A program made the position numbers and the translations under genes. From Rhodothermales bacterium (GTDB lineage: Bacteria; Bacteroidota; Rhodothermia; Rhodothermales; Bin80): a stretch of 44,337 bases of DNA. The DNA lies in the NCBI GenBank assembly GCA_022821385.1, contig JAJEDR010000065.1, forward strand, positions 1 through 44,337, written 5' to 3'. Position 1 is the stretch's first letter, and each line of letters opens with the position of its first letter. Positions 2,247 to 23,823 of this stretch are shown here, in pieces. The notes beneath the pieces are model-generated. The model had not been told where the DNA came from. It saw nothing but the letters and a program-made list of their open reading frames with translations, and did not search any database.

Positions 2247-3500
2247 ATGCGAAAACCCTCCGTCCGGCTTGCGCTTTGTCTCCTCGCGTTGCTAGTAATC
2301 CAGCTGCCTCACAGCGCTCGTATTAAGCATAGACCTGCTGCCCTCCCCCTCATTGAGCGTGACGCATTTGGCGTTCCCACGTCTGGACTTGATAAGCATG
2401 CCTCTACGGTCCAGCGGAACGAGTCCCTTGAATCAATCATGAATGACCGGAAGGTGCCTAGAGAAAAACAGCAATTGGCTTTTCAGCAGGCCGAAGCATT
2501 CATCGACTTTCGGAAGATTGGCAGGGGCGATTCGTTGTATACCTATACCGACTCGAGCGGCGTTGCCGAGTTTGTAGTCTATAAACCCAGCATTAAGGAA
2601 TTCCTCGTCTTTGACTTTGGGGATTCCGTACGGGTCCATGAAGATTCCCTTACCTCTCGAAAGGCAGTCCGGCGTGCATCTGGAACCATTGCAAAGGGCA
2701 GTTCCCTTTTTCAGACCATCCAGGACTCTGGTCTTAATCAACAATTAGCCCTGAACCTTAGTGAGATTTTCGCCTGGCAGGTCAGTTTTTTTCATTTACT
2801 CCCCGGGGACCAGTTCTCAATCCTGTATGAAGATGAAAAAGTGCATGGACAATCCATCGGAACTGAGATCAAAGCTGCCCGCTTCCGCCACGCAGACCAG
2901 GATTACTTTGCGTTCTATTTTCCTGAGGACGGTATAAGTGGATTCTACGACGAAGAAGGGCGTCCATCAGAACGTCCGTTCCTGCGTGCACCCGTGGAGT
3001 TCAGTCGAATATCATCTCAGTACAGTCGCAGACGATTCCATCCCATCCAGAGACGCTACAAGCCACATCTCGGTACGGATTTCGCTGCCCCTAGAGGAAC
3101 TCCTATCGTTGCCACCGCGAATGGCACGGTGATCAATGCTGCGTACGCAGGCGGCAACGGCAACTATGTCAAGATTCGGCATAACGATGTCTACACAACG
3201 GGGTATCTCCACATGTCCCGGATAAAAAGCGGAATCCGCCCCGGAGTACGTGTTCAACAAGGTGATGTAATTGGATATGTCGGCAGTACAGGCCTGGCCA
3301 CGGGTCCCCATGTCTGCTACCGCTTCTGGAAGAACGGCAGTCAGGTTGATGCAATGAGAGTAGAGATGCCGAAATCAGAACCCCTGCCCGACTCTATTCT
3401 GCCAAAATTCTTCGCGGTCAGAGATGGGCTATGGAAACAATTACCAAACACTCTTGAAGGTCAATTAACGCCCGAATCGATTACGGGGGCTGGTGACTGA
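2247..3500 (+). CDS. M23 family metallopeptidase with N-terminal signal and OapA/LysM-like region
   Basis: This is a probable peptidoglycan DD-endopeptidase of the LytM/M23 family, acting in the periplasm. Residues 1-24 form a signal peptide or anchor. Residues about 55-125 and 145-215 resemble the OapA-like regions of Bacteroidota M23 proteins. The catalytic domain covers about 265-375. It has His274 and Asp278 (HLGTD), His322 in GYLHMS, and His355 in GPHVCYRF. The third zinc ligand, normally the second His of HxH, is Cys357 here. I recall GPHVC as a recurrent variant in Bacteroidota members, and Cys can bind zinc, so this need not mean inactivity. The gene starts 39 bp after the adenosyltransferase. 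Its 3' end overlaps the convergent gene by 36 bp. Confidence 0.9.
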   Translation: MRKPSVRLALCLLALLVIQLPHSARIKHRPAALPLIERDAFGVPTSGLDKHASTVQRNESLESIMNDRKVPREKQQLAFQQAEAFIDFRKIGRGDSLYTYTDSSGVAEFVVYKPSIKEFLVFDFGDSVRVHEDSLTSRKAVRRASGTIAKGSSLFQTIQDSGLNQQLALNLSEIFAWQVSFFHLLPGDQFSILYEDEKVHGQSIGTEIKAARFRHADQDYFAFYFPEDGISGFYDEEGRPSERPFLRAPVEFSRISSQYSRRRFHPIQRRYKPHLGTDFAAPRGTPIVATANGTVINAAYAGGNGNYVKIRHNDVYTTGYLHMSRIKSGIRPGVRVQQGDVIGYVGSTGLATGPHVCYRFWKNGSQVDAMRVEMPKSEPLPDSILPKFFAVRDGLWKQLPNTLEGQLTPESITGAGD

Positions 3501-11530: not shown

Positions 11531-12928
11531 CTACTTCACCAGTGTCATGAGACCAGCCTTATCGTACCTACTCTCCAACCCCGTCGCGGTCATCCGATAT
11601 ATGTAGGTCCCCGATGCGAGGTGGCCCGCATTCAGTTCAATCGTACGGTTAGCACCCGCTTCAAACGCCTGTGCAGGTAATTCAATCACTTTACGGCCCC
11701 ATAAATCTACTACCTGCAGCTTCACTTGTGCCCTCTCAGGAAGATCAAACTGTATCCGTGTTGACGGATTGAAGGGGTTCGGATAATTTCCATGGAGTGT
11801 AAACTCTGTCGGGATCTCTGTGGTCGTGCCCTCCACTGAGGTGGTGAGGCTCGGGAAATAAGCACCTGCGAGGATATATTCCCCTTGTATGCCGTCCGGC
11901 ATAATAGATGTCCCGTAAGCCCTCCTGAGGGTTCCCTCCTGGTCATCGTTCGGATCGTCGGGATTATCCCAATAATAGTCCACAAATCCTCCACCAGACT
12001 GGGCTTCTTGGATAATCCTCCGAACGAAAGTAGTATCACCCCTGATATCAGGGTTGTTGATAACTATCCGACCTTCACGCCACGCATCCAGTCCATGGAA
12101 TACCACAAATCCGTCGGGAGTCATGCTGTACAGATATACTAGACCGTCCTTGAAGACTCCTCCATCTTTGACATCTTTTCTGAACTCAACTTTCCAGTGA
12201 AGGACCCCCGCAAACCCCACATGATTAAACAGTTCAGTAGACCACTGCGCCGCACCTTCCACAAACTGCTTCAGGGATTCGTCGTCTACCACATCAGCAG
12301 CGGTAACAGCAGGAACTGGAATATTAGGGAGTGGTGTTACCAGAGCGCTCAAATCCTGGTAGTATCCACCAACGACAACAAGATCGGTGTTGATTGTCGG
12401 CGCGAAGTAACGCATGGCATAGCTGGGCTTGCAAGTAGCACCCGGAGCGTTATCTGAATCGTCATTCGGGTCATTCCAACAATACTCTACTCTCATTGCC
12501 TCGCTTGTGCCCGCAGCTAACATATTCTTGATTACTTCATTGCCTTCATCGTCGGTAACCTCGAGTGCTGCTATACTCTCCAAGTTCCGATTCCCAGGAT
12601 GAAATATGATGGTGCCCTTATGATCCGTCAAGTACATGAGATAGATATTATCGCCCGATCTATAATCACCGGTGGTATCATAAATTGCAGCTCGCAGAGC
12701 ATTGCCTGCCGTGATATCTGTTATCTCCGCAGATACAGCTGTAGCCCAGGTGACAAAGGCCTTTAGGGAATCTTCATTTATCTTTCCATCGGCACCCACG
12801 ACTGCGTCGGCGGTTACCTTAGGCACTTGTGCTTGAACTGCGTTTGAGTCGGATAACCCTATTCCTGCGCCCAAAAGGACAACTGAAATCACGATAACCA
12901 GTAATTTCCTGCTGAAAAAATACATCAT
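11531..12928 (-). CDS. T9SS-exported protein with two Cache-like sensory domains
   Basis: This 465-residue exported protein starts at the double ATG 12928/12925 (first ATG used here). The longer open frame upstream lacks any signal and is rejected. A signal peptide (RKLLVIVISVVLLGAG) is followed by two copies of a single-Cache-2-like domain. Copy 1 has YLMYLTDHKGTIIFHPGN, then VEYCWNDPND and a late VVGGYYQDLS. Copy 2 has YLYSMTPDGFVVFHG, then FVDYYWDNPDDPND and ILAGAYFPSL. The C-terminus is a T9SS sorting domain (GNYPNPFNPSTRIQF, DLWGRKV, SGTYIYRMT). Cache domains normally sit outside the membrane on chemoreceptors and kinases. Here there is no membrane segment or signalling module, so this is a free or surface-attached ligand binder. 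The gene is divergent from the PKS gene, and its upstream region carries an 11-bp phased repeat array. Confidence 0.82.
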   Translation of the reverse strand: MMYFFSRKLLVIVISVVLLGAGIGLSDSNAVQAQVPKVTADAVVGADGKINEDSLKAFVTWATAVSAEITDITAGNALRAAIYDTTGDYRSGDNIYLMYLTDHKGTIIFHPGNRNLESIAALEVTDDEGNEVIKNMLAAGTSEAMRVEYCWNDPNDDSDNAPGATCKPSYAMRYFAPTINTDLVVVGGYYQDLSALVTPLPNIPVPAVTAADVVDDESLKQFVEGAAQWSTELFNHVGFAGVLHWKVEFRKDVKDGGVFKDGLVYLYSMTPDGFVVFHGLDAWREGRIVINNPDIRGDTTFVRRIIQEAQSGGGFVDYYWDNPDDPNDDQEGTLRRAYGTSIMPDGIQGEYILAGAYFPSLTTSVEGTTTEIPTEFTLHGNYPNPFNPSTRIQFDLPERAQVKLQVVDLWGRKVIELPAQAFEAGANRTIELNAGHLASGTYIYRMTATGLESRYDKAGLMTLVK

Positions 12929-12966
12929 CTTTAATATTTGGAAGTCTCGCTCGTTCGACAATAATA

Positions 12967-13021
12967 TAACGAAATAACAACGAATACGTAACGCAAATGT
13001 AACGGAAACGTAAGGAACCAT
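12967..13021 (-). promoter_or_regulatory. Five 11-bp phased direct repeats upstream of the Cache-protein gene
   Basis: Repeat units begin at 12967, 12978, 12989, 13000 and 13011. They read TAACGAAATAA, CAACGAATACG, TAACGCAAATG, TAACGGAAACG and TAAGGAACCAT, with consensus TAACGnAA. The period is exactly 11 bp, about one helical turn. On the minus strand the array ends directly at a TATATT sequence (about 12962-12967) that could be the -10 element, 35 bp before the start codon. Tandem sites with this period are typical of OmpR/PhoB-type response regulators, which often replace a -35 element. No such regulator is in the window. Confidence 0.55.
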
Positions 13022-13467
13022 TGCAGTTACGCTCGCAATAAAAGCGGTTGATCGTTTAATTTCCACCGAAAAAAACGGAAGGCTCGGGATAAAAACCAAC
13101 CTATTCTCCTGCCTTCACGTTTCGTGTGAACAGATCAGTATCAAGCGCGCTTCCTTTACACTGAATAGTACATAATACTTGTTATTGATATCTGGCTCTC
13201 GATTTGGAGAGTACGCGCGAATGAGGAGGCTAGTATCCCAGATATTTCGGTTAAAAATGGGACCGTACGTTAAGGGTAGAATTCGAAAGCTATCCGCTTA
13301 TTTTTGTATCTTTTACTGTGTGGGTTTGTGATGATTGTTCCAACCTTATTGCGCGTTGAACTTCTGTCTCCAACTCCTAAAATCAGTTTGTCGAGAGGAA
13401 CATCAATAAACTCACGCTCTCGGCAACAACGGAGCTGTCGAATAGTCAAGGGGACCACGGAATCTCG

Positions 13468-13515: not shown

Positions 13516-16500
13516 ATGATGATAGCAAAACATCATCCTAAGGACCCCATCGCTATCGTGGGGATGGCCTGCCGCTTTCCAGGCGCACCCGATCTTGCTG
13601 CTTTTTGGCAGCTGCTTGAATCCGGCACGAACGCAGTCATACAGGGAGAGCCGGGATCCGGCGTTGGGCGAATTGGGAAACTCGCTGTTGGCCCCGATCC
13701 AAAACCCGCCTGCTGTTTTGGGGGGTATCTTGACGAGGTAGACCTGTTCGATGCAGCTTTTTTTCGCCTCTCTCCGGTTGAAGCACAATTTCTAGACCCC
13801 CAGCAAAGGTTGATGCTGGAAACATGCTGGTATGCTCTTGAGGACGCGGGGATCGCCCCGGAGACCCTTCGAGGCAGCCGCACCGGTGTCTATACCGGGG
13901 TCAGTTCCGGCCAATACTATGACCTAGTAAGGGATGCAATAGATGTTGAGACTGCAGACCCGGCTTCAAGTCTCTATGCGGCGACCGGTAATGCACCGAA
14001 TACAGCCAGCGGACGGGTCTCCTTTGCACTTGGATTACAAGGACCCGCGGTTTCGATTGACACAGCGTGCTCGTCATCACTGGTTGCAATTCACCAGGCA
14101 GTGTCTGGCCTGCTGAGAGGGGAATCAGATATAGCGCTGGCAGGGGGGGTCAACATGGTCCTGTCCGGGATGTCTATGGAGTTGCGCGCCAATGCTGGAA
14201 TGCTATCTCCGGATGGACGCTGCGCAACTTTTGACGAAGCAGCGAACGGATATGTACGGGGGGAAGGGTGTGGAATTGTTGTGCTGAAGCGGCTGGCAGA
14301 AGCTGAAACAGACAGAGATCGAATATGGGGTGTTATTCGATCTACCGCATTGAATCAGGACGGTGCCAGTTCTGGATTAACCGTCCCCAACGGAATCTCA
14401 CAGGAACGTGTTATCAAGGCCGCCCTGAAGCGGGCAGGCCTTGACCCTTCTCAGATTGACTACCTGGAAACCCACGGAACTGGTACAAGTGTAGGTGACC
14501 CCATTGAATTGCAGGCCATAGGAAACGTGTATGGCTCGGAGCGTGCTGCTGATCAGCCACTTTTGATCGGTTCTGTAAAAACAAATATCGGGCATCTAGA
14601 GACGGCAGCCGGCGTAGCAGGGGTCATCAAGGTGATTCTCTCTATGAATAAGAGATGCATTCCAGAGCACCTTCACTTCAGCAAACCGAACTCGGCATTA
14701 GCCTGGGAGGAACTTCCTATTCAGGTGACCGCCGAAAAAAATGACTGGCCAAATAATTCTGGAAAACCACCCTATGCGGGCGTCAGCGGGTTCGGTTGGT
14801 CAGGAACGAATGCCCACATCATTCTGCAAGGGTACGACGGGCCGGGCCTGAAGGCCGAACATGCTGACTTGGGTGAAAATGTCGTGGGGCTACCCAAGCG
14901 GATCCCTGTTGCATTACCCAGATCCATCGCACAGTATCCATCGGAACAACTAGCGCTCCCACGACGCAAACTTCGCATGCTTCCCCTGTCAGGCAAATCA
15001 GACGGGGCACTCGTTGATGCTGCGAAACAGTACCGGTCATGGCTAAACAAAAATAACGGGCAACCCAACTCTGATACAGCGCAGTCTCTCCTCTCAAATA
15101 TGGCTTGGACCGCCTCTACGGGGCGTAGCCACTTTTCTCATCGAGCCGGGCTCCTGTATGATGACCTTGCACGACTGCGCGAACAACTGGACGCGCTTAT
15201 TGCGGCCGGTAAAGGATCCGATCCATATAGACCGGAAAAAATTGGATTCCTGTTCACCGGCCAGGGAAGCCAGTGGATCGGGATGGGGCGGGATATATAT
15301 GAAACCGAACCGGTAGCGCGAGCGGTACTTGATCGTTGTAATGAAGTCGTACAGTCAGAACGAAACACATCGTTGCTGGATGTGATTTTTGGTCGAAGCA
15401 GTGAAGATCTGTACAATACTATCTGGGCGCAACCTGCGATCTACGCGATTGAGTGCGCCATTGCTGAGCTCTGGATAAGCCTTGGAGTTCGTCCGCAAAT
15501 GGTCATGGGACATAGCGTCGGAGAATTCGCTGCCGCGCATATTGCAGGGGTGATCAGCTTGGAAGATGGCCTCCAGATCATGATGAGGCGAAGTGAGATC
15601 TTGTCTTCGCTTCCCGAAGCCGGGGCGATGGCAGCTATATTCGCTCCGGTCTCCGACGTGAAATCTGCTGTGCATGAACAAAACGGAAAATCACAGAGTG
15701 AACGACTGGGGATTGCGGCTACGAATGGGGCACATCAGGTGATCAGTGGATCAGTGAAAGCGGTCCAGCGAGTGGCCAAGCAATTCGAATCCAGAAATGT
15801 CCGTGTAAGCTTCCTGAGGACCGATCAGGCGTTCCATAGCCCTTTGGTGGCGCCGCGCCTGGACGCACTGGAAAAACTCTTTGAAGAGATTGAAATAGCC
15901 ACACCCTCAATACAATTTATAAGTAATGTAACCGGCCAGGCGGCTAACCCAGATATGATACTTGATGGGAGCTACTGGCGCCGACATGCCCGTGAAGCCG
16001 TAGCTTTCAGCCGGGGAGTTCAAACGTTTGCAACACTCGGAGTTGACCTGGTCATTGAGGTTGGGCCGCACGCCGTACTCGGACCTATGCTCTCTCTCGC
16101 ATGGCCTGAACCGGGTAAGAGTCAACCCAACAATGCTGCTCCTCCGCGCGTGCTGTCAAGTCTTCGGCGTCCCCCGGAAGACAGTGCTGACTCCGCGGAC
16201 CAATCCGAATATGGGTTCATTGCATCCGTGGCAAACGCGTATGAGGCTGGGGTAAACCTATCATTTGAGGGATTATTTGCCGGTGAGACACGGAATCGGA
16301 TTTCGCTTCCTGGATACCCATTTCAGCGTGAGCACCACTGGGTTGATGCCCCTAAACGTCGGAAACGAGACGCCGGACATCCCCTGCTGGGGGAGCGACA
16401 CGAATCAGCCAGTGGTGAGATCTTCTTTGAGACCGAGCTGTTTCCGTCAGATCCGACATGGCTCCAGGATCACAAAGTGTTTGACCAGATTCTGGCACCA

Positions 16501-19500
16501 GGCGCATTGTACGGGGCCCTCGCGGTAGCCGCCTCTCATTCCGAAAACGGGGGAGGAGTTGTACAGGATCTGCAATTCCACACTCCGATGATCTTTTCCG
16601 GAAAAAGTTCAGACGAAGGGATTGATCACGATACGGGACGCAAGGTGCAGACTGTGGTGCGTCCATCTGAAAAGTCTCTCCAACTTCAGATTCTAAGCAA
16701 AGACGCGGAGGACGCGGAGTGGACCGTACATGCGGAATGTAATGTATTAATCGGCCCAAATGCATCCCAGGCCCCGCAGACCATCAGTCTGGATCAACTC
16801 AGGAACGCGATGTCTCCGGGGGATATCGCTGCTTTTTACCGGGACAAGGCAAATGTAGGGATTGGTTTCGGGCCGTCCTTTCATACTGTTCAAGCAATCT
16901 GGATCGGAGAAGGAGAAGCTCTGGGAGAGATTGTCTTGCCAGAGAAAAACACGCTGAGTAACGTGAGCATACATCCTCTGTTGCTGGATGGGTGCTTCCA
17001 GGTGATGTCTGCTGCCCGTCAGACTATACCAGAACAAGAGAAGATTACGTACTTGCCCTTTGGTTGCGACCGACTATGGTTCCCAGCACAGCTGCCGAAC
17101 CGAGTGGTTTGTCACGTTCAAATGAACGAAGCGGCTGAAGAAGCGAATGAATCATCGGGTACACCCGCGGAGATCATGAGTGCGGAACTGCGTGTCTATG
17201 ACACACATGGAGTTCTACTCGGTGGATTAAACGGATACATTGTAAAGCGTGCAACGCGGGAAGCACTGCTTTCTGCCGTTGACGATATAGAGGATCTTCT
17301 GTACGAGATAAGCTGGCGGGAAAATCCTCTGATCTCGACCGTGCTGCCGGCAGATTTTTTCCCATCCGCCAGAACCGTTGCTTCGAATTCGGGACTTCTG
17401 TCAGACTATTTGGCTGAAGAGGGGGTTCCAGTACAAGAGAGGACTGCTCTTCTGGATGACCTGGAGCGGTGGGCAAGCTCACGTGCACTCCAAACCTTGG
17501 ATGAATTGGGATGGCAGCGGGAGCATGGAGAAGTCGTAGAACCGGAGGTTCTGCGCGAGCGCCTGGGGGTTCTCTCTGATCACAGCCGCGTCTTTCGCCA
17601 AATGCTCAAGATATTGGCTAAGTCCGGGATTCTAGAGGAGATAAAGGACTCGTTTGTCGTCAGAATTGCGTCCGGGGAGATATTGCCCGACGAATTGCCT
17701 ATGGAACTGGATGCATTTGCGGACAAGATGGCTGCGCGATACTCACATGGCGCCACAGAGATCGGGCTCTTCAGGCGTTGTGGCCCTGCGTTGGGAGCGG
17801 TGCTCCGCGGGCAGGAAAACCCACTAATGTTGTTATTCAGCAGTGGAGATCCAACGCCTGGAGATCTGTACACAAAAGCACCGGTGGCACGGGCGGCTAA
17901 CCGTATTATGAAGGAGACCGTTCGTTCACTTATGAGCGGTTTACCCGCCGACCGCCGCCTCAGGATCATTGAGGTTGGCGCGGGCACGGGCTCCGCTACT
18001 GCCGTGATCCTTCCCGAACTCCCCGAGGGGCGTTTTGATTACGTGTATACTGATATTTCGGTGGGCTTCTTTGCGGAGGCTGAAAAACGATTTCAGGATG
18101 CTGCTGCATCCATAGAATACGTTCCCCTGAACATCGAAAACGACCCTGCTACACAGGGATTTGAGTTGCACAGTTTCGATTTACTGATCGCTTCAAATGT
18201 GCTGCATGCCACGCGATATCTTGACGAAACGCTTGGGTACTGCCTGGACTTGCTTGCACCATCTGGCCAGTTGATAGCGCTTGAGAACCTGCGCGGATGG
18301 GGTTGGATGGACTTGACTTTTGGACAGCTGGATGGCTGGTGGCGATTTGCCGATAGTTACCGCACTGACCACGTCATGGCCAGTCCAGCGGTTTGGCGAC
18401 GTGCACTTGGCGATGCAGGTTTTGGTGAAGTTGAAGTTCTGGGTATTGAAGAACCTGATTTGACAGGAAGGCAGGAAAAGGGCGTGATCATAGCACAAGC
18501 ACCAACCGTAATTCAGGAACGTGCTGGAGTTTGGATACTGGTGGGCGATCAGAACGGAGTTGCGCAAGACTTGGCTGAAGATCTATTCCTTCGTCATCAG
18601 ACGGTCATGCTGGTAGAGGCAGGGGAGGCATATCCGAAAGCCCCTGCCCCTGAATTGAATGAACCTGGCGTCATCCGGGTTACCGCAGACATCCATCGCC
18701 GGGAATCGTGGGAAACGTTGCTGCAAGGCATGCCCAAGGACCTGACGTTGAAAGGTATTGCACACCTTGTTGCCCTTGATGGAGAAAGTTCAAATGTATC
18801 GGCCGAAGAGTTAGCGCAGAATACTCAACGAATTGTGGAAAGCGCACTTGCTCTCGTACAGGCCGTGATAGATACTAATGTAGTGCCAGCTAAAGGCATT
18901 TGGTTTATTACACGGGGTGCCCAAGTAATAGAAAGGGAGTTTACAGGGCAACTAGCGGGCGCGGCATTATGGGGATTTGGTAAAGGTGTCGTCCGGGAAC
19001 TGGCTCATCTGCAGACGAGAATGATCGACCTGGATCCCGGTGAATGCGCCCCTGCCCCCGACCTGGTGGCAGAACTGCTCAATCCTGACCGTGAGAACCA
19101 TATTGCCTATCGTTCTGGCCGACGAAGTGCGGCACGTGTGGTCAGAGAGAATGTAGGTTCGGAGCGTCTCAGCTTCTCCGACAACTCGGCCTGGGTACTG
19201 ACACCAGATCCACATGGCTTAATTGAAAATCTTGACGTCAGGACGCTGCCAGATCGGGATCTGGAGCCGAATGAAGTTCGTGTAGCAGTCAAGGCCTGCG
19301 GCATGAATTACTGGGATGTCTTCCGTTCTCTTGGGTTCATTCAAGAGGATGACCTCGGCCGGGAAATGTGCGGAGATGTGCTCGAGGTCGGTGCTGATGT
19401 ATCAAGGGTTTCGGTCGGCGACTATATCGTCGGGTTGGGGTTCGGTGCATTCGCGTCGGAAATAGTGACACACGAAGAGCTGGTGGCACCCGCACCAGCG

Positions 19501-22500
19501 GGCTTCTCGGTATCGGAATTGGCGACAATGCCATGTGCTTTTGTTTCAGCTGCGTTGTCCTACGAGCTTTCGGGACTGGAAGCTGGCGACCGTGTGCTGA
19601 TCCATGCCGGATCAGGTGGTGTGGGTTTGGCTGCAATTCAACTGGCCAGGGCCGCAGGGGGTGAAGTTTTCACAACCGCAAGCGCTCCGAAACAGGGATA
19701 TCTGCGCTCGCTAGGTGTGAAGCATGTATTCAATAGCCGTGAGACCCGGTTTGGCGAAGAAATTCTCGAGGCCACAAATGGTGAGGGGGTAGATTTGGTG
19801 CTCAATAGCCTTACTAGTGAGGGATTCATTGATGCGAGTCTGTCATGTCTTGCCAAGGGAGGCCGGTTCGTTGAACTGGCAAGAAGGGATATTCTTAGTG
19901 AAGAGGAAATGGCAGCTGTGCGTCCCGATGTGAGCTATGCTATCCTTGAACTGGACCGGCTCAAGAAAACCGACCCCGCCCAAGTTGGCAAAGTTCTTCG
20001 GAACTTGGTGAGACGATTTGATTCCGGGGACCTTAATCCCCTCATTCACAGCAGATGGCCAATAGCCGAAACCGGAGATGCATTGCGATTTATGCGGTCT
20101 GCCCGCCATCTTGGTAAGATTGTTCTTACGAAATCGGCACTGGCACAGGGATCATTTAGACGGGATCGAAGCTATCTCATTACTGGTGGACTAGGGGGAA
20201 TTGGATGTGCTGTTGCAAACTGGTTGGCGGATCATGGAGCGAACGTCATTGTGCTGAACGGGCGACGCCCACCAGGAAAGGAGGCCCAGAGAGTAATTGA
20301 TGCCTTGCAAGCACGTGATATTACCGTGCATGTAGCCCTTGCAGATGTGACGGATCCCGTTGCAATGGACAAGATGCTTGCCGACATACGGCAGGAGTTG
20401 CCGCCCCTTGCCGGGGTCATCCATAGCGTGGGGGTATTGTCAGATGGCGAGTTGGGAGGCCAGAGTTGGAAACGATTCCAGAAGGTACTATGGCCCAAAA
20501 TGATAGGTGCATGGCATTTGCATCGTGCTACTGCAAATTGTGACCTGGACATGTTCCTTCTTTTTTCCAGTCGTGTAGGCGTCATGGGAAATCCAGGACA
20601 GGCAAATCACGCGGCTGCGAATGCATTTTTGGATCAACTTGCTGCACATCGCCGTGCGGTCGGACTCCCAGGCCAGACAATTGCCTGGGGGGCTTGGTCG
20701 GAAATTGGCGAAGCTGCGGAGCAGAAGGAGCGGATTGAAGAGCGGTTGGCGGCGCTTGGCAGTCGCTGGTTTACACCGCAGCAGGGCATCAAGGCACTTG
20801 ACGAACTCGTGCGCACTGACGGTACAAATCCCGTCGTAATGTCAATGGACTGGGGAGTTTACCAGGAGGCAATTCAGGACCGTCCGGCTTTTCTGGAGGA
20901 CTTGCTGGACGACGCTTCTGATGAAGAAAGCGATTCGACGGTATTGCTTGAAGATCCGCTATCGCTGTTGCGAGGAATGCCAGCGGCCGAGCACAAAGAC
21001 CTACTAGTATCCTTCCTTCAGCAAGAGCTCCAGGCCGTGCTGCGCTTACCAAATGCCCCCTCTCCCACGGTAGGATTCTTTGATTTGGGGATGGATTCGT
21101 TGATGGCAGTTGAACTGCGGAATCGACTAAACCGCGCGTTTGCCGACGAGTACGTGGCCTCTAATACAGTGGTGTTTGACTATCCAGATATCAACACTTT
21201 GGCAGGGCATTTGGCCGATGAATTAGGATCAATTGGCCCCGCTCCTGCCCCGCTACAGCTTGTTGCACAACAGCAGCAACCGGTTGCACAGAGCGATGAG
21301 GACGGCATTGCGGTGATAGGTATGGCGTGTCGCTTCCCTGGTGCACCAGACATTGAGGCATTTTGGGGATTGCTTGAATCCGGGCGCAATACCGTTTCGG
21401 ATGGACGTACTGATCCTGGTCCTTGGGAGGGGGTAATGGGGAATCCCTCTGCGGAGGATCCTGTCCTGAGACGGGGATCGTTTCTGGACGGGCTGGATCA
21501 ATTTGATGCAGAGTTTTTCAAGATCAGACCAGTCGAAGCTCGGATCATGGATCCGAGACAACGCATTCTCCTGGAAACCAGTTGGAACGCGATTGAGGAC
21601 GCTGCAATTGATCCTGACTCTCTCAGATCCAGCCGAACAGGGATCTATGTTGGGATGGGACCCAGCGAATACAGAGAGCTACTTTCCGGGAGCGGTCAGG
21701 ATTACAACTATCTTGGTACTGCTGCCAGCGTTGCAATAGGACGTATTGCTTTTCTGTTGGGGCTGATGGGGCCAGCTGTTGCGCTGGATATGACGTGTGC
21801 GTCCTCGTTGGCTGCAATCCACCAGGCAATATTGGGTCTCCGGTCTGGGGAGATAAACCTTGCTCTAGCAGGTGGTGTCAATGTGGTTCTTTCTCCCGCA
21901 ACCACAAGGTTTATGGCGGATTACGACCTGCTGTCGTTAAGCGGAAATTGCAGAACATTCGATGCAGAAGCCGATGGATTCGTTCGGGGAGAGGGCTGTG
22001 GAATCGTAATCCTCAAGCGGCTAAGCGATGCGGTATCGGATGGAGATCGCATATGGGGGATCATTCGTGGTTCTGCAGTGAATCAAAATGGTGCCAGCGC
22101 AGCACTTACGGTACCGAACGGCAAAGCACAGGAACAAGTCCTGGAAGATGCGCTGTCTCAGTCTGGGATTTCCCCCTCAGAAGTGGACTTTCTGGAAGTA
22201 CATGCAACTGGGTCACCTATGGGGGATCCGATCGAGGTTAATTCAGCTGCTTCCGTATATGGCAGGGACCGTGAAGCGGATCATCCACTTCTGCTCGGAA
22301 CCGTGAAGACAAATATTGGCCATCTTGAGTCGGCAGCAGGCGTAGCCGGCCTCATTAAAGTCCTGTTAGCAATGGACAGGAGAGTCCTTCCTAAACATTT
22401 GCATTTTGATGAACCGAACCCATATGTAGAGTGGAGCCAGTTGCCAATTCAGGTCACTTCGGAAAACGTGGACTGGCCAAGCCGAACAGGCCGCCCACCT

Positions 22501-23823
22501 CGGGCGGGAGTCAGTGCATTCTCAATCTCAGGGGCGAACGCGCATATTGTAGTGGAAGGTCACACCCAATCCAGAGATGCAACCTGTAATTCTCCGGCAG
22601 GTGCTCCTAAATCTATCCCCGTTCCAGAGTTAAGGGTGGACGTGGACATTTCAGATACTGAAAACTGGGACCAGCGACGTGTAAGAATACTGCCTCTGTC
22701 ATCAAAATCAGACAATGCACTGCGAGAGCTAGCCGGACGCCACATCCACTGGCTTGACGAGCACAGCACGATGCAGTATGCCGGGATTTCTGTAGAGGAT
22801 TTGCTCGCAGATATGACATGGACCGCAGCAACAGGACGAAGCCACTTATCCCTTCGAACAGGGATTGTGTTCGACGACGAAAAGTCACTTCGAAGCGGCT
22901 TGATGAGCGTCGCCGGGACAAATGGAAGATTACCCGTGCCTGAAAAAAGCCCGAAGCTGGCGTTTCTCTTTAGCGCAAAGGAAACCCTCGAAGTTGGAGT
23001 GGGGGCGGAATTGTATCGTACTGAACCGGTCGTGCGTGCAGTTCTGGATCACTGTGACCAATTGCTACAGGAAGAATTGGGAGCCTCGTTGCTTGATGTG
23101 ATGCTTGGGAATTCCGAAAATCTCTCTGATTTAACGATATGGCGAGTCCCAGCTCTCTTTGCACTTCAATGTGCCCAAGCTGCATTGTGGGAGAGTGTCG
23201 GGATTCACCCCGATGCAGTAATCGGGGTTGGTCCAGGAGAAATAGCGGCTGCGTATGCAGCCGGTGTTTTGAAGCTGGAGGATGGGCTCGCTCTTGCTTT
23301 GCGGCATGCTGAACTGGTTGAAGCGAATCCGCGTACCGAGGACACTCAAACCTTCCTGAACGAGATGTCATTTGCACTACCATCCACCCGTATTGTAAGT
23401 GGAATGACCGGTCTACAAGTGAGTGCTGATATGCCCATAGATGCAGCCTACTGGGCCCGACAGGCGCGTTCACCTGCGACACTTGACAAGTGCCTCTCGA
23501 CCATCACGGAAATGGAAATAACGGTCGTCGTAGAAGTCGGTCACGAAATGTCGGTGAATCCAGAGGCACCTTCACCTTGGCCAAAAAGTTCAGAGCACGC
23601 GGACACTAAACAGGTGGAACCGGGGCCGGCAGGTTCAGGAAAAGACATCGCCAACGTATCCAGCGAGAACTTTATGCGCTCGGTTGCAAGATTGTACGAA
23701 GCAGGTCTCAATCTCGATTTCTCAGGATTGTTTGCCGGAGAAAAGAGAAGTCGAATCTCGCTGCCTACCTATCCTTTCCAACGGCGCCACTTCTGGTTCA
23801 AGAACTCTGCTCCGAGTTCATGA
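13516..23823 (+). CDS. Type I polyketide synthase: KS-AT-DH-cMT-psiKR-ER-KR-ACP-KS-(eroded AT)
   Basis: This 3435-residue multidomain enzyme builds a carbon chain on its own carrier domain. Domains by residue: KS1 10-438 (Cys185, His320, His360); AT1 576-870 (GQG at 582, Ser667 in GHSVGE, His774 in AFHSP, malonyl-type); DH 955-1250 (His986, Asp1158); C-methyltransferase about 1395-1665 (EVGAGTGSAT at 1486); non-catalytic KR half about 1680-1880; ER 1890-2208 (HAGSGGVG at 2030); KR 2216-2440 (GGLGGIG, Lys2328, Ser2352, His2365 in place of Tyr); ACP about 2495-2565 (Ser2528); Gln/Pro linker; KS2 2595-3015 (Cys2761, His2896, His2936); eroded AT 3147-3350; post-AT linker to the end. There is no loading module or thioesterase, so iterative use of the first eight domains is likely. 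The order resembles fungal highly reducing PKSs and the small sponge-symbiont 'sup' PKSs. ATG at 13516 or 13519 may be the start. Confidence 0.93.
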   Translation: MMIAKHHPKDPIAIVGMACRFPGAPDLAAFWQLLESGTNAVIQGEPGSGVGRIGKLAVGPDPKPACCFGGYLDEVDLFDAAFFRLSPVEAQFLDPQQRLMLETCWYALEDAGIAPETLRGSRTGVYTGVSSGQYYDLVRDAIDVETADPASSLYAATGNAPNTASGRVSFALGLQGPAVSIDTACSSSLVAIHQAVSGLLRGESDIALAGGVNMVLSGMSMELRANAGMLSPDGRCATFDEAANGYVRGEGCGIVVLKRLAEAETDRDRIWGVIRSTALNQDGASSGLTVPNGISQERVIKAALKRAGLDPSQIDYLETHGTGTSVGDPIELQAIGNVYGSERAADQPLLIGSVKTNIGHLETAAGVAGVIKVILSMNKRCIPEHLHFSKPNSALAWEELPIQVTAEKNDWPNNSGKPPYAGVSGFGWSGTNAHIILQGYDGPGLKAEHADLGENVVGLPKRIPVALPRSIAQYPSEQLALPRRKLRMLPLSGKSDGALVDAAKQYRSWLNKNNGQPNSDTAQSLLSNMAWTASTGRSHFSHRAGLLYDDLARLREQLDALIAAGKGSDPYRPEKIGFLFTGQGSQWIGMGRDIYETEPVARAVLDRCNEVVQSERNTSLLDVIFGRSSEDLYNTIWAQPAIYAIECAIAELWISLGVRPQMVMGHSVGEFAAAHIAGVISLEDGLQIMMRRSEILSSLPEAGAMAAIFAPVSDVKSAVHEQNGKSQSERLGIAATNGAHQVISGSVKAVQRVAKQFESRNVRVSFLRTDQAFHSPLVAPRLDALEKLFEEIEIATPSIQFISNVTGQAANPDMILDGSYWRRHAREAVAFSRGVQTFATLGVDLVIEVGPHAVLGPMLSLAWPEPGKSQPNNAAPPRVLSSLRRPPEDSADSADQSEYGFIASVANAYEAGVNLSFEGLFAGETRNRISLPGYPFQREHHWVDAPKRRKRDAGHPLLGERHESASGEIFFETELFPSDPTWLQDHKVFDQILAPGALYGALAVAASHSENGGGVVQDLQFHTPMIFSGKSSDEGIDHDTGRKVQTVVRPSEKSLQLQILSKDAEDAEWTVHAECNVLIGPNASQAPQTISLDQLRNAMSPGDIAAFYRDKANVGIGFGPSFHTVQAIWIGEGEALGEIVLPEKNTLSNVSIHPLLLDGCFQVMSAARQTIPEQEKITYLPFGCDRLWFPAQLPNRVVCHVQMNEAAEEANESSGTPAEIMSAELRVYDTHGVLLGGLNGYIVKRATREALLSAVDDIEDLLYEISWRENPLISTVLPADFFPSARTVASNSGLLSDYLAEEGVPVQERTALLDDLERWASSRALQTLDELGWQREHGEVVEPEVLRERLGVLSDHSRVFRQMLKILAKSGILEEIKDSFVVRIASGEILPDELPMELDAFADKMAARYSHGATEIGLFRRCGPALGAVLRGQENPLMLLFSSGDPTPGDLYTKAPVARAANRIMKETVRSLMSGLPADRRLRIIEVGAGTGSATAVILPELPEGRFDYVYTDISVGFFAEAEKRFQDAAASIEYVPLNIENDPATQGFELHSFDLLIASNVLHATRYLDETLGYCLDLLAPSGQLIALENLRGWGWMDLTFGQLDGWWRFADSYRTDHVMASPAVWRRALGDAGFGEVEVLGIEEPDLTGRQEKGVIIAQAPTVIQERAGVWILVGDQNGVAQDLAEDLFLRHQTVMLVEAGEAYPKAPAPELNEPGVIRVTADIHRRESWETLLQGMPKDLTLKGIAHLVALDGESSNVSAEELAQNTQRIVESALALVQAVIDTNVVPAKGIWFITRGAQVIEREFTGQLAGAALWGFGKGVVRELAHLQTRMIDLDPGECAPAPDLVAELLNPDRENHIAYRSGRRSAARVVRENVGSERLSFSDNSAWVLTPDPHGLIENLDVRTLPDRDLEPNEVRVAVKACGMNYWDVFRSLGFIQEDDLGREMCGDVLEVGADVSRVSVGDYIVGLGFGAFASEIVTHEELVAPAPAGFSVSELATMPCAFVSAALSYELSGLEAGDRVLIHAGSGGVGLAAIQLARAAGGEVFTTASAPKQGYLRSLGVKHVFNSRETRFGEEILEATNGEGVDLVLNSLTSEGFIDASLSCLAKGGRFVELARRDILSEEEMAAVRPDVSYAILELDRLKKTDPAQVGKVLRNLVRRFDSGDLNPLIHSRWPIAETGDALRFMRSARHLGKIVLTKSALAQGSFRRDRSYLITGGLGGIGCAVANWLADHGANVIVLNGRRPPGKEAQRVIDALQARDITVHVALADVTDPVAMDKMLADIRQELPPLAGVIHSVGVLSDGELGGQSWKRFQKVLWPKMIGAWHLHRATANCDLDMFLLFSSRVGVMGNPGQANHAAANAFLDQLAAHRRAVGLPGQTIAWGAWSEIGEAAEQKERIEERLAALGSRWFTPQQGIKALDELVRTDGTNPVVMSMDWGVYQEAIQDRPAFLEDLLDDASDEESDSTVLLEDPLSLLRGMPAAEHKDLLVSFLQQELQAVLRLPNAPSPTVGFFDLGMDSLMAVELRNRLNRAFADEYVASNTVVFDYPDINTLAGHLADELGSIGPAPAPLQLVAQQQQPVAQSDEDGIAVIGMACRFPGAPDIEAFWGLLESGRNTVSDGRTDPGPWEGVMGNPSAEDPVLRRGSFLDGLDQFDAEFFKIRPVEARIMDPRQRILLETSWNAIEDAAIDPDSLRSSRTGIYVGMGPSEYRELLSGSGQDYNYLGTAASVAIGRIAFLLGLMGPAVALDMTCASSLAAIHQAILGLRSGEINLALAGGVNVVLSPATTRFMADYDLLSLSGNCRTFDAEADGFVRGEGCGIVILKRLSDAVSDGDRIWGIIRGSAVNQNGASAALTVPNGKAQEQVLEDALSQSGISPSEVDFLEVHATGSPMGDPIEVNSAASVYGRDREADHPLLLGTVKTNIGHLESAAGVAGLIKVLLAMDRRVLPKHLHFDEPNPYVEWSQLPIQVTSENVDWPSRTGRPPRAGVSAFSISGANAHIVVEGHTQSRDATCNSPAGAPKSIPVPELRVDVDISDTENWDQRRVRILPLSSKSDNALRELAGRHIHWLDEHSTMQYAGISVEDLLADMTWTAATGRSHLSLRTGIVFDDEKSLRSGLMSVAGTNGRLPVPEKSPKLAFLFSAKETLEVGVGAELYRTEPVVRAVLDHCDQLLQEELGASLLDVMLGNSENLSDLTIWRVPALFALQCAQAALWESVGIHPDAVIGVGPGEIAAAYAAGVLKLEDGLALALRHAELVEANPRTEDTQTFLNEMSFALPSTRIVSGMTGLQVSADMPIDAAYWARQARSPATLDKCLSTITEMEITVVVEVGHEMSVNPEAPSPWPKSSEHADTKQVEPGPAGSGKDIANVSSENFMRSVARLYEAGLNLDFSGLFAGEKRSRISLPTYPFQRRHFWFKNSAPSS

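Follow-up and report, generated by a model that had tools for sequence, protein, structure and literature searches.

Fungal highly reducing PKSs are organized as KS-AT-DH-cMT-psiKR-ER-KR-ACP and end at the ACP. A sup-type PKS consists of one module with KS, AT, DH, MT, ER, KR, and ACP, and such mono-modular PKSs of sponge symbionts were reportedly described by Fieseler (2007) and Hochmuth (2010). Of the accounts cited here, one presents sup-type enzymes as small PKSs of a single module whose proposed products are mid-chain-branched fatty acids (PMC4245539), one places SUP clusters in several phyla (PMC9426513), and one reports a KS clade that is specific to sponges and contains no characterised (MIBiG) member (PMC10308959). 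The swf PKS is given as KS-AT-DH-ER-KR-ACP, with no MT, an altered DPQQR, and HATGT (PMC3908369). In CalA3, as outlined in the source, the KS retains its C-H-H residues, the AT is dead due to a Ser-to-Gly change, and no ACP lies behind them, release occurring by amidation or hydrolysis without condensation (PMC10006239). Pks13 is described as passing a chain from an upstream ACP to its KS, where it condenses with the unit carried by a second ACP, followed by thioesterase release (PMC9210659), and the Steely enzymes of Dictyostelium as fusions of a fatty acid synthase with a second condensing enzyme (PMC9489281). We have analyzed a synthase of a Rhodothermales bacterium, encoded within a window (the whole stretch of DNA analyzed) of 44,337 nucleotides, in which a second KS (KS2) and a degenerate AT (AT2) follow the ACP (ACP1).

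Domain organization and conserved end of the synthase

The synthase is read from a single open frame of 3435 aa, 13516..23823 on the + strand of the window, and with 2043.8 bits it passes the cut-off (1740) of the NCBIfam model PKS_plus_SDR (NF045894). Its domain order is KS-AT-DH-cMT-(psiKR)-ER-KR-ACP-KS-AT remnant-stop. A preliminary description of this DNA had given the same layout, and Pfam bears it out, with the psiKR placed by position and length since that stretch was assigned by none of the domain searches. The features are as follows.

13516..23823, + strand: C-methylating PKS, single gene, with a second, terminal KS (ORF, Pfam, NCBIfam)
13543..14835, + strand: KS1, aa 10-440, C185/H320/K355/H360 (residue check; Pfam, KS 10-388 and C-terminal extension)
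15238..16092, + strand: AT1, aa 575-859, S667 and H774, AFHS motif (residue check; Pfam, AT 578-859)
16378..17268, + strand: DH, aa 955-1251, H986 and D1158 (Pfam, residue check)
17833..18495, + strand: C-methyltransferase, about aa 1440-1660 (Pfam Methyltransf_12, 1485-1586)
18508..19200, + strand: putative structural psiKR stretch, aa about 1665-1895 (position and length only)
19267..20127, + strand: ER, aa 1918-2204 (Pfam)
20170..20703, + strand: KR, aa 2219-2396, His2365 at the usual catalytic Tyr position (Pfam, alignment)
21016..21213, + strand: ACP1, aa 2501-2566, attachment Ser2528 (Pfam PP-binding, residue check)
21298..22545, + strand: terminal KS2, aa 2595-3010, C2761/H2896/K2931/H2936 (Pfam, with C-terminal extension at 2967-3087; alignment; tree)
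22858..23796, + strand: AT2 remnant and post-AT motif, aa about 3115-3427, Gly3239 at the nucleophile position, shortened nucleophile-to-VTG distance (alignment; weaker second AT stretch in Pfam)

The checked catalytic letters of KS1, AT1, DH, KR, and ACP1 are all present with one exception, the change from Tyr to His2365 in the KR. The frame stops 8 residues past YPFQRRHFW (residues 3419-3427), which we take to be the motif that closes a KS-AT unit, so that the synthase ends at a clean domain border. Compared to the same-genus genomes G004 and G008 (L102 and L103), KS1/AT1 are 50–55% and DH 48–55% identical (window 13543-17268), and MT, ER, KR, ACP, and KS2 are 78–93% identical; the N-terminal half of the synthase has apparently been swapped within the genus.

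A search with residues 2590-3430 against 5.8 billion proteins gave 2561 scored proteins, the best 120 of which were examined. The order KS-AT-DH-MT-ER-KR-ACP-KS-AT was found exactly in 106 of these best 120 (the window protein, P0001, counted). P0032 has the same order with only the ER match absent and brings the family set to 107; the other 13 are PKSs of other kinds with several KSs. The tail past the AT2 match is 8–25 aa in the 106 proteins and 13 aa in P0032. Named family members among the best 120 include Rhodothermaceae (P0012), Deltaproteobacteria, and Gemmatimonadetes. The preliminary description had reasoned that homologues all continuing past this stop would make the window copy a truncation, and that the same KS-AT remnant end in several genomes would support a conserved design. 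The first expectation fails and the second is borne out: 107 of the best 120 relatives stop at the same place, which excludes chance or truncation as the origin of this end. Two related multi-KS PKSs, P0010 (4348 aa) and P0013 (3940 aa), likewise end in KS-AT with no ACP behind.

A single scan of genome contigs yielded 78 loci, 17 with the family architecture (L001-L015, L018, and L052) and 61 representing other PKS loci. The 17 derive from Chloroflexi/Chloroflexota, Bryobacterales, Defluviicoccus, Nitrospirales, Acidimicrobiales, Pseudomonadales, and Gammaproteobacteria; judging from isolate codes, the MAGs behind L001-L015 presumably resemble a sponge series. Four of the 17 have broken frames (L004, L006, L008, and L018), and interruptions due to assembly error or decay are also present in the family copies L103, L104, and L123 and in the hydrolase and ACP2 genes of G012.

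Alignment of the 107 family proteins demonstrates different fates for the two KS-AT units. In the first unit, all four catalytic residues of KS1 and the Ser and both His of AT1 are present in every protein. KS2 retains its Cys in 107, its first His in 106, its Lys in 107, and its second His in 107, although its HGTGT motif has drifted, with Ser replacing the final Thr in 104/107. Across 29 family loci the Cys, Lys, and second His of KS2 are found in 29/29 and the first His in 27/29, being Asn in L007 and L010. In contrast, the nucleophile Ser of AT2 is replaced in 105/107 (Gly in 84, Asp in 18, Asn in 2, and Ala in 1, with Ser in the other 2), and the distance from nucleophile to VTG is 49–68 aa as compared to 137–142 in AT1. 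AT2 is about 75 residues shorter than AT1, and in the alignment of the two window domains the gap takes out the catalytic-His stretch. Judged by these residues, AT2 is clearly no longer an acyltransferase, and an intact KS site is thus maintained beside a dead AT. The KR position usually held by Tyr (window 20608-20610) is His in 107/107 aligned family proteins; a motif search of loci outside the family found 67 Tyr and 1 His (L042). Either the KR would function without this Tyr, or full reduction would need to be rethought.

A quick maximum-likelihood tree of 116 KSs, built from sampled rows with SH-aLRT in place of bootstrap and with two long non-family rows flagged, groups 29 KS2 sequences in one clade (SH-aLRT 100) and 27 KS1 sequences in another (94), the two clades being sisters (96). 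This relationship indicates that KS2 was born by one old internal duplication, before the family spread.

Carrier and hydrolase genes accompanying the synthase

The preliminary description had stated that no thioesterase, stand-alone ACP, or PPTase is in the window. This holds for the window: Pfam recognised none of the three in 19 flanking ORFs, a set that covers the window up to 38584 apart from short overlapping frames, and family ACP2, hydrolase, and PPTase queries gave no match when run against every ORF of 55 aa or more in the window. It does not hold for the genome. The genome search that the description had proposed located a PPTase on C94 and, side by side close to one end of contig C12, a hydrolase (C12:85012-85899) and an ACP2 (C12:86158-86379). 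The hydrolase-ACP2 pair adjoins genes for a 350-aa NHL-repeat protein and a 534-aa beta-lactamase-like protein. These two neighbours match genes that flank the PKS elsewhere, at 96/89% identity in G008, 94/88% in G004, and 93/87% in G009, and in G004 and G008 the PKS sits between the hydrolase and the NHL gene. C12 therefore looks like an old PKS site, from which the PKS would have moved to its present contig C5, leaving the hydrolase-ACP2 pair behind. The pair is apart from the PKS in G003 and G005 as well. The PPTase on C94, which is 52% identical to that of the L105 operon, is the only protein in the genome to match PF01648. Also present in this genome is a 602-aa ORF with a KS-like match at 32% identity (L112 8955-10763, on C13). 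A Cache-domain protein with a secretion-sorting tail is encoded upstream of the PKS (window 11534-13099), and homologues of it flank the PKS on both sides in G005 (L100 694-2139 and 16877-18307) and G003 (L101 295-1719 and 16639-18084).

Clustering of the ORFs that flank family synthases revealed four recurrent neighbours: an alpha/beta hydrolase of about 303 aa, a PPTase, a permease, and a short ACP gene. The short gene encodes a stand-alone ACP, with a Pfam PP-binding match in 5/5 scanned (E 1.9e-9 to 8.5e-7). Partners were tabulated for 30 PKS loci, among them the fragments L109, L110, and L111, the last two of which come from one genome. By profile search, the stand-alone ACP2 is found in 24/30 loci, no more than 2.4 kb from the synthase; the hydrolase is found in 22/30 (that of L012 being a contig-end fragment) and the PPTase in 15/30. 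The gene order PKS-ACP2-PPTase-hydrolase occurs in L001, L003, L004, L005, L008, L009, and L105. The six loci lacking ACP2 are the window, L104, L012, L018, L110, and L109. In L104 the ACP2 lies in pieces about 23 kb off on the same contig, beside the hydrolase, and the downstream flanks of L012, L018, and L110 extend for just 216, 53, and 62 bases. The fragment L109 has neither ACP2 nor hydrolase in its 8.7 kb downstream flank; its genome has both elsewhere. ACP2 adjoins the hydrolase in all four loci (L120-L123) where the PKS is elsewhere. Applied to 72 non-family loci, the ACP2 profile found a short ACP in 2, both beside FabF. Two free-standing ACPs are present in each of G005 and G003, one by the PKS and one by the hydrolase (L100 13973-14197, L101 4604-4972). 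A transporter often accompanies the operon (L001, L105, L010, L012, and others), relatives of the L105 Xan_ur_permease being found in 11/30 loci and an alternative transporter cluster in 7, the two scanned of which are Sulfate_transp-STAS-cNMP proteins. PPTase and permease showed no specificity for PKS-bearing genomes.

The hydrolase and ACP2 do track the synthase across genomes. KS2-AT2 is present in 10/39 related genomes (G000, the window's own, and G003, G004, G005, G007, G008, G009, G011, G012, and G029) with scores of at least 761 bits, versus a maximum of 728 among the KS1 domains; two of these genomes, G008 and G012, have an interrupted PKS frame. The hydrolase is found in the same 10 genomes and in none of the other 29. 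The best ACP2 score is 106–119 bits in nine of the 10, the ACP2 of G012 being in two pieces (50.0 and 34.5 bits), and the best match in the other 29 is 50.3 bits (G024), the level of an ordinary AcpP. The ACP2 profile was built partly from rows of these genomes, so the high scores there arise partly by construction; the absence from the 29 does not. For the 10/10 versus 0/29 split the Fisher p is 1.6e-9, a test that ignores kinship and is inflated by it. Among 296 genomes drawn from the phylum, KS2-AT2 is encoded in 5 at E up to 1e-150, and the hydrolase in 6 at E up to 1e-30. The sixth genome with a hydrolase, G159, is a real exception, with a 47% identical hydrolase beside restriction-modification genes and no such PKS, indicating that the hydrolase family can act elsewhere.

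ACP2 has an invariant attachment Ser (17/17 aligned rows) and is an AcpP-like type II carrier, in that AcpP leads its matches in a PDB profile search; its matches to NCBIfam acyl carrier protein models fall below the cut-offs. In the hydrolase, S115, D248, and H277 are invariant in 32/32 aligned rows and, judged by position, form the presumed catalytic triad. A Foldseek search with the hydrolase model returned CurM (curacin) thioesterase chains (3qit) as the top four PDB rows, with E 1.1e-13 to 8.5e-13 and TM 0.61–0.65, for a fold so common that 1127 PDB chains match at E up to 0.001. Residues 248–276 of the model have a pLDDT under 50. The likeness to CurM may be taken as weak support for a thioesterase.

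Proposed role of the terminal KS and its alternatives

We propose that KS2 takes the finished chain from ACP1 and joins it to a unit on the separate ACP2, and that the co-occurring hydrolase likely releases the product, a reading to which we assign a probability of about 0.48. It draws on the domain order, the KS2 residues, the degenerate AT2, the duplication, the conserved stop, and the co-occurrence of synthase, ACP2, and hydrolase. The synthase is predicted to be iterative and C-methylating and to build methyl-branched fatty-acid-like chains. KS1-AT1-DH-cMT-ER-KR-ACP1 would build the methyl-branched acyl chain, ACP1 would hand it to Cys2761 of KS2, and KS2 would perform one decarboxylative condensation with a malonyl or other carboxyacyl unit on ACP2. 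ACP2 would be charged in trans, perhaps by a housekeeping FabD, with malonyl from FabD being a guess (the genome has an AT-like, FabD-sized match at C72:28666-29046). With ACP2 charged in trans, AT2 could have degenerated until it served the KS as a structural support. Cleavage of the beta-ketoacyl-ACP2 would then fall to the hydrolase. The whole unit would follow the ACP-KS-AT-ACP-TE logic known from Pks13 but distribute it among three proteins, the chain synthase being fused in front.

The preliminary description had offered condensation onto a separate carrier, release by transfer to a nucleophile, and a structural partnership as roles for the terminal KS. Transfer to a separate carrier is the best supported of these because the genomes that encode the synthase also encode a stand-alone ACP, for the most part near the synthase gene; the reaction itself we infer. 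CalA3 releases its chain with an intact C-H-H and a dead AT and does not condense, so the KS2 residues do not prove a condensation. The drift of the HGTGT motif in KS2 and the Asn in place of the first His in L007 and L010 likewise count against it. Direct release as in CalA3, in which Cys2761 would pass the chain to water, an amine, or an alcohol with no C-C bond formed and ACP2 and the hydrolase would act before or after (for example in editing), is the alternative to be taken most seriously, though we consider it unlikely. The CalA3 module as described has no ACP, an intact C-H-H, and Gly in place of the AT Ser (PMC10006239), and AT2 has Gly at that position in 84/107 proteins. Direct release nevertheless assigns no function to the co-occurring free-standing ACP, and CalA3 is described with a DH and KR past its AT, where the synthase here has nothing past AT2.

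Pairwise distances were compared over 22 loci having all four parts, with 999 label shuffles; for the window, L100, and L101, the ACP2 and hydrolase were taken from another contig of the same genome. ACP2 distances gave a partial rank correlation of 0.48 with KS2 given KS1 (p 0.001) and of 0.06 with KS1 given KS2 (p 0.182), and hydrolase distances gave 0.72 (p 0.001) and 0.21 (p 0.022), respectively. This pattern lends support to KS2, ACP2, and the hydrolase being one unit, although the hydrolase retains a weak correlation with KS1. It bears on the possibility that KS2 is a second elongating KS serving ACP1 (charged by AT1), for instance to make longer chains, with ACP2 and the hydrolase needed for release only. 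Such an arrangement fits the retention in KS2 of the residues for decarboxylative condensation and the position of ACP1 directly before it; we consider it rather improbable, because ACP2 and the hydrolase co-diverge more with KS2 than with KS1 and because KS2 follows ACP1 like a downstream module. It is more doubtful still that ACP2 gives a starter unit to KS1, with the hydrolase as a type II editing thioesterase and some other role for KS2: an AcpP-like type II carrier could hold a fatty starter, but the correlation of ACP2 with KS1 given KS2 is near zero, and ACP2 adjoins the hydrolase in the four loci with the PKS elsewhere. That KS2-AT2 is a dimerisation or packing element only, the structural partnership of the preliminary description, accords with an AT2 that is clearly not an acyltransferase any more but is scarcely credible, since a scaffold has no need of catalytic residues kept in 106–107 of 107 proteins.

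Terminal condensation onto ACP2 may extend well beyond this genome. We tentatively suggest that a split, Pks13-like ending is widespread over several bacterial phyla, in which a KS2 that arose when the first KS-AT pair was duplicated would deliver the methyl-branched chain to a type II ACP of its own, and a thioesterase-like hydrolase, likewise private to the system, would free a beta-keto (or derived ketone) lipid. To our knowledge, no member of such a split-finishing lipid synthase system has been characterised. If true, the proposal would explain how chains end in single-gene bacterial lipid synthases that have no thioesterase domain, would name ACP2 and the hydrolase besides a PPTase as the partners that heterologous expression needs, and would provide a natural system for testing how a KS-AT pair can become a terminal station for transfer or condensation. 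If the family corresponds to the sup-type enzymes of sponge symbionts, the question of their product would become a four-protein reconstitution.

Comparison with known systems

The synthase contains the one-module domain set of the sup-type PKSs, a likeness by description rather than by comparison to a SupA sequence. Accounts of the sup and swf types, among them PMC4245539, PMC9426513, and PMC3908369, make no reference to a terminal KS, a free-standing ACP, or a hydrolase, though the primary papers may do so. An assignment to the swf PKSs is ruled out because the synthase has a methyltransferase and its KS1 has DPQQR and HGTGT. Fungal highly reducing PKSs end at the ACP, whereas the synthase continues with KS2-AT2. 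In the Steely enzymes, as described, the second condensing enzyme is a chalcone synthase and not a KS-AT.

Among characterised systems, CalA3 comes closest to the KS-dead-AT end, sharing a KS with C-H-H kept, an inactive AT, and no ACP behind in the protein. It is described, however, as ending a modular line and retaining an inactive DH and KR, whereas the synthase here stops at AT2 and co-occurs with a free ACP and a hydrolase. Pks13 is nearest for the full ACP-KS-AT-ACP-TE logic. According to its description, Pks13 is one protein with an active AT and is not itself the builder of the chain; the synthase here has its chain builder fused to the KS2 end and a dead AT2, with ACP2 and the hydrolase as separate proteins. 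The NCBIfam model mycolic_Pks13 scores 1214.7 bits on the synthase, below its cut-off of 2100. We file the synthase as a new variant among the mono-modular C-methylating PKSs, outside the CalA3 and Pks13 families.
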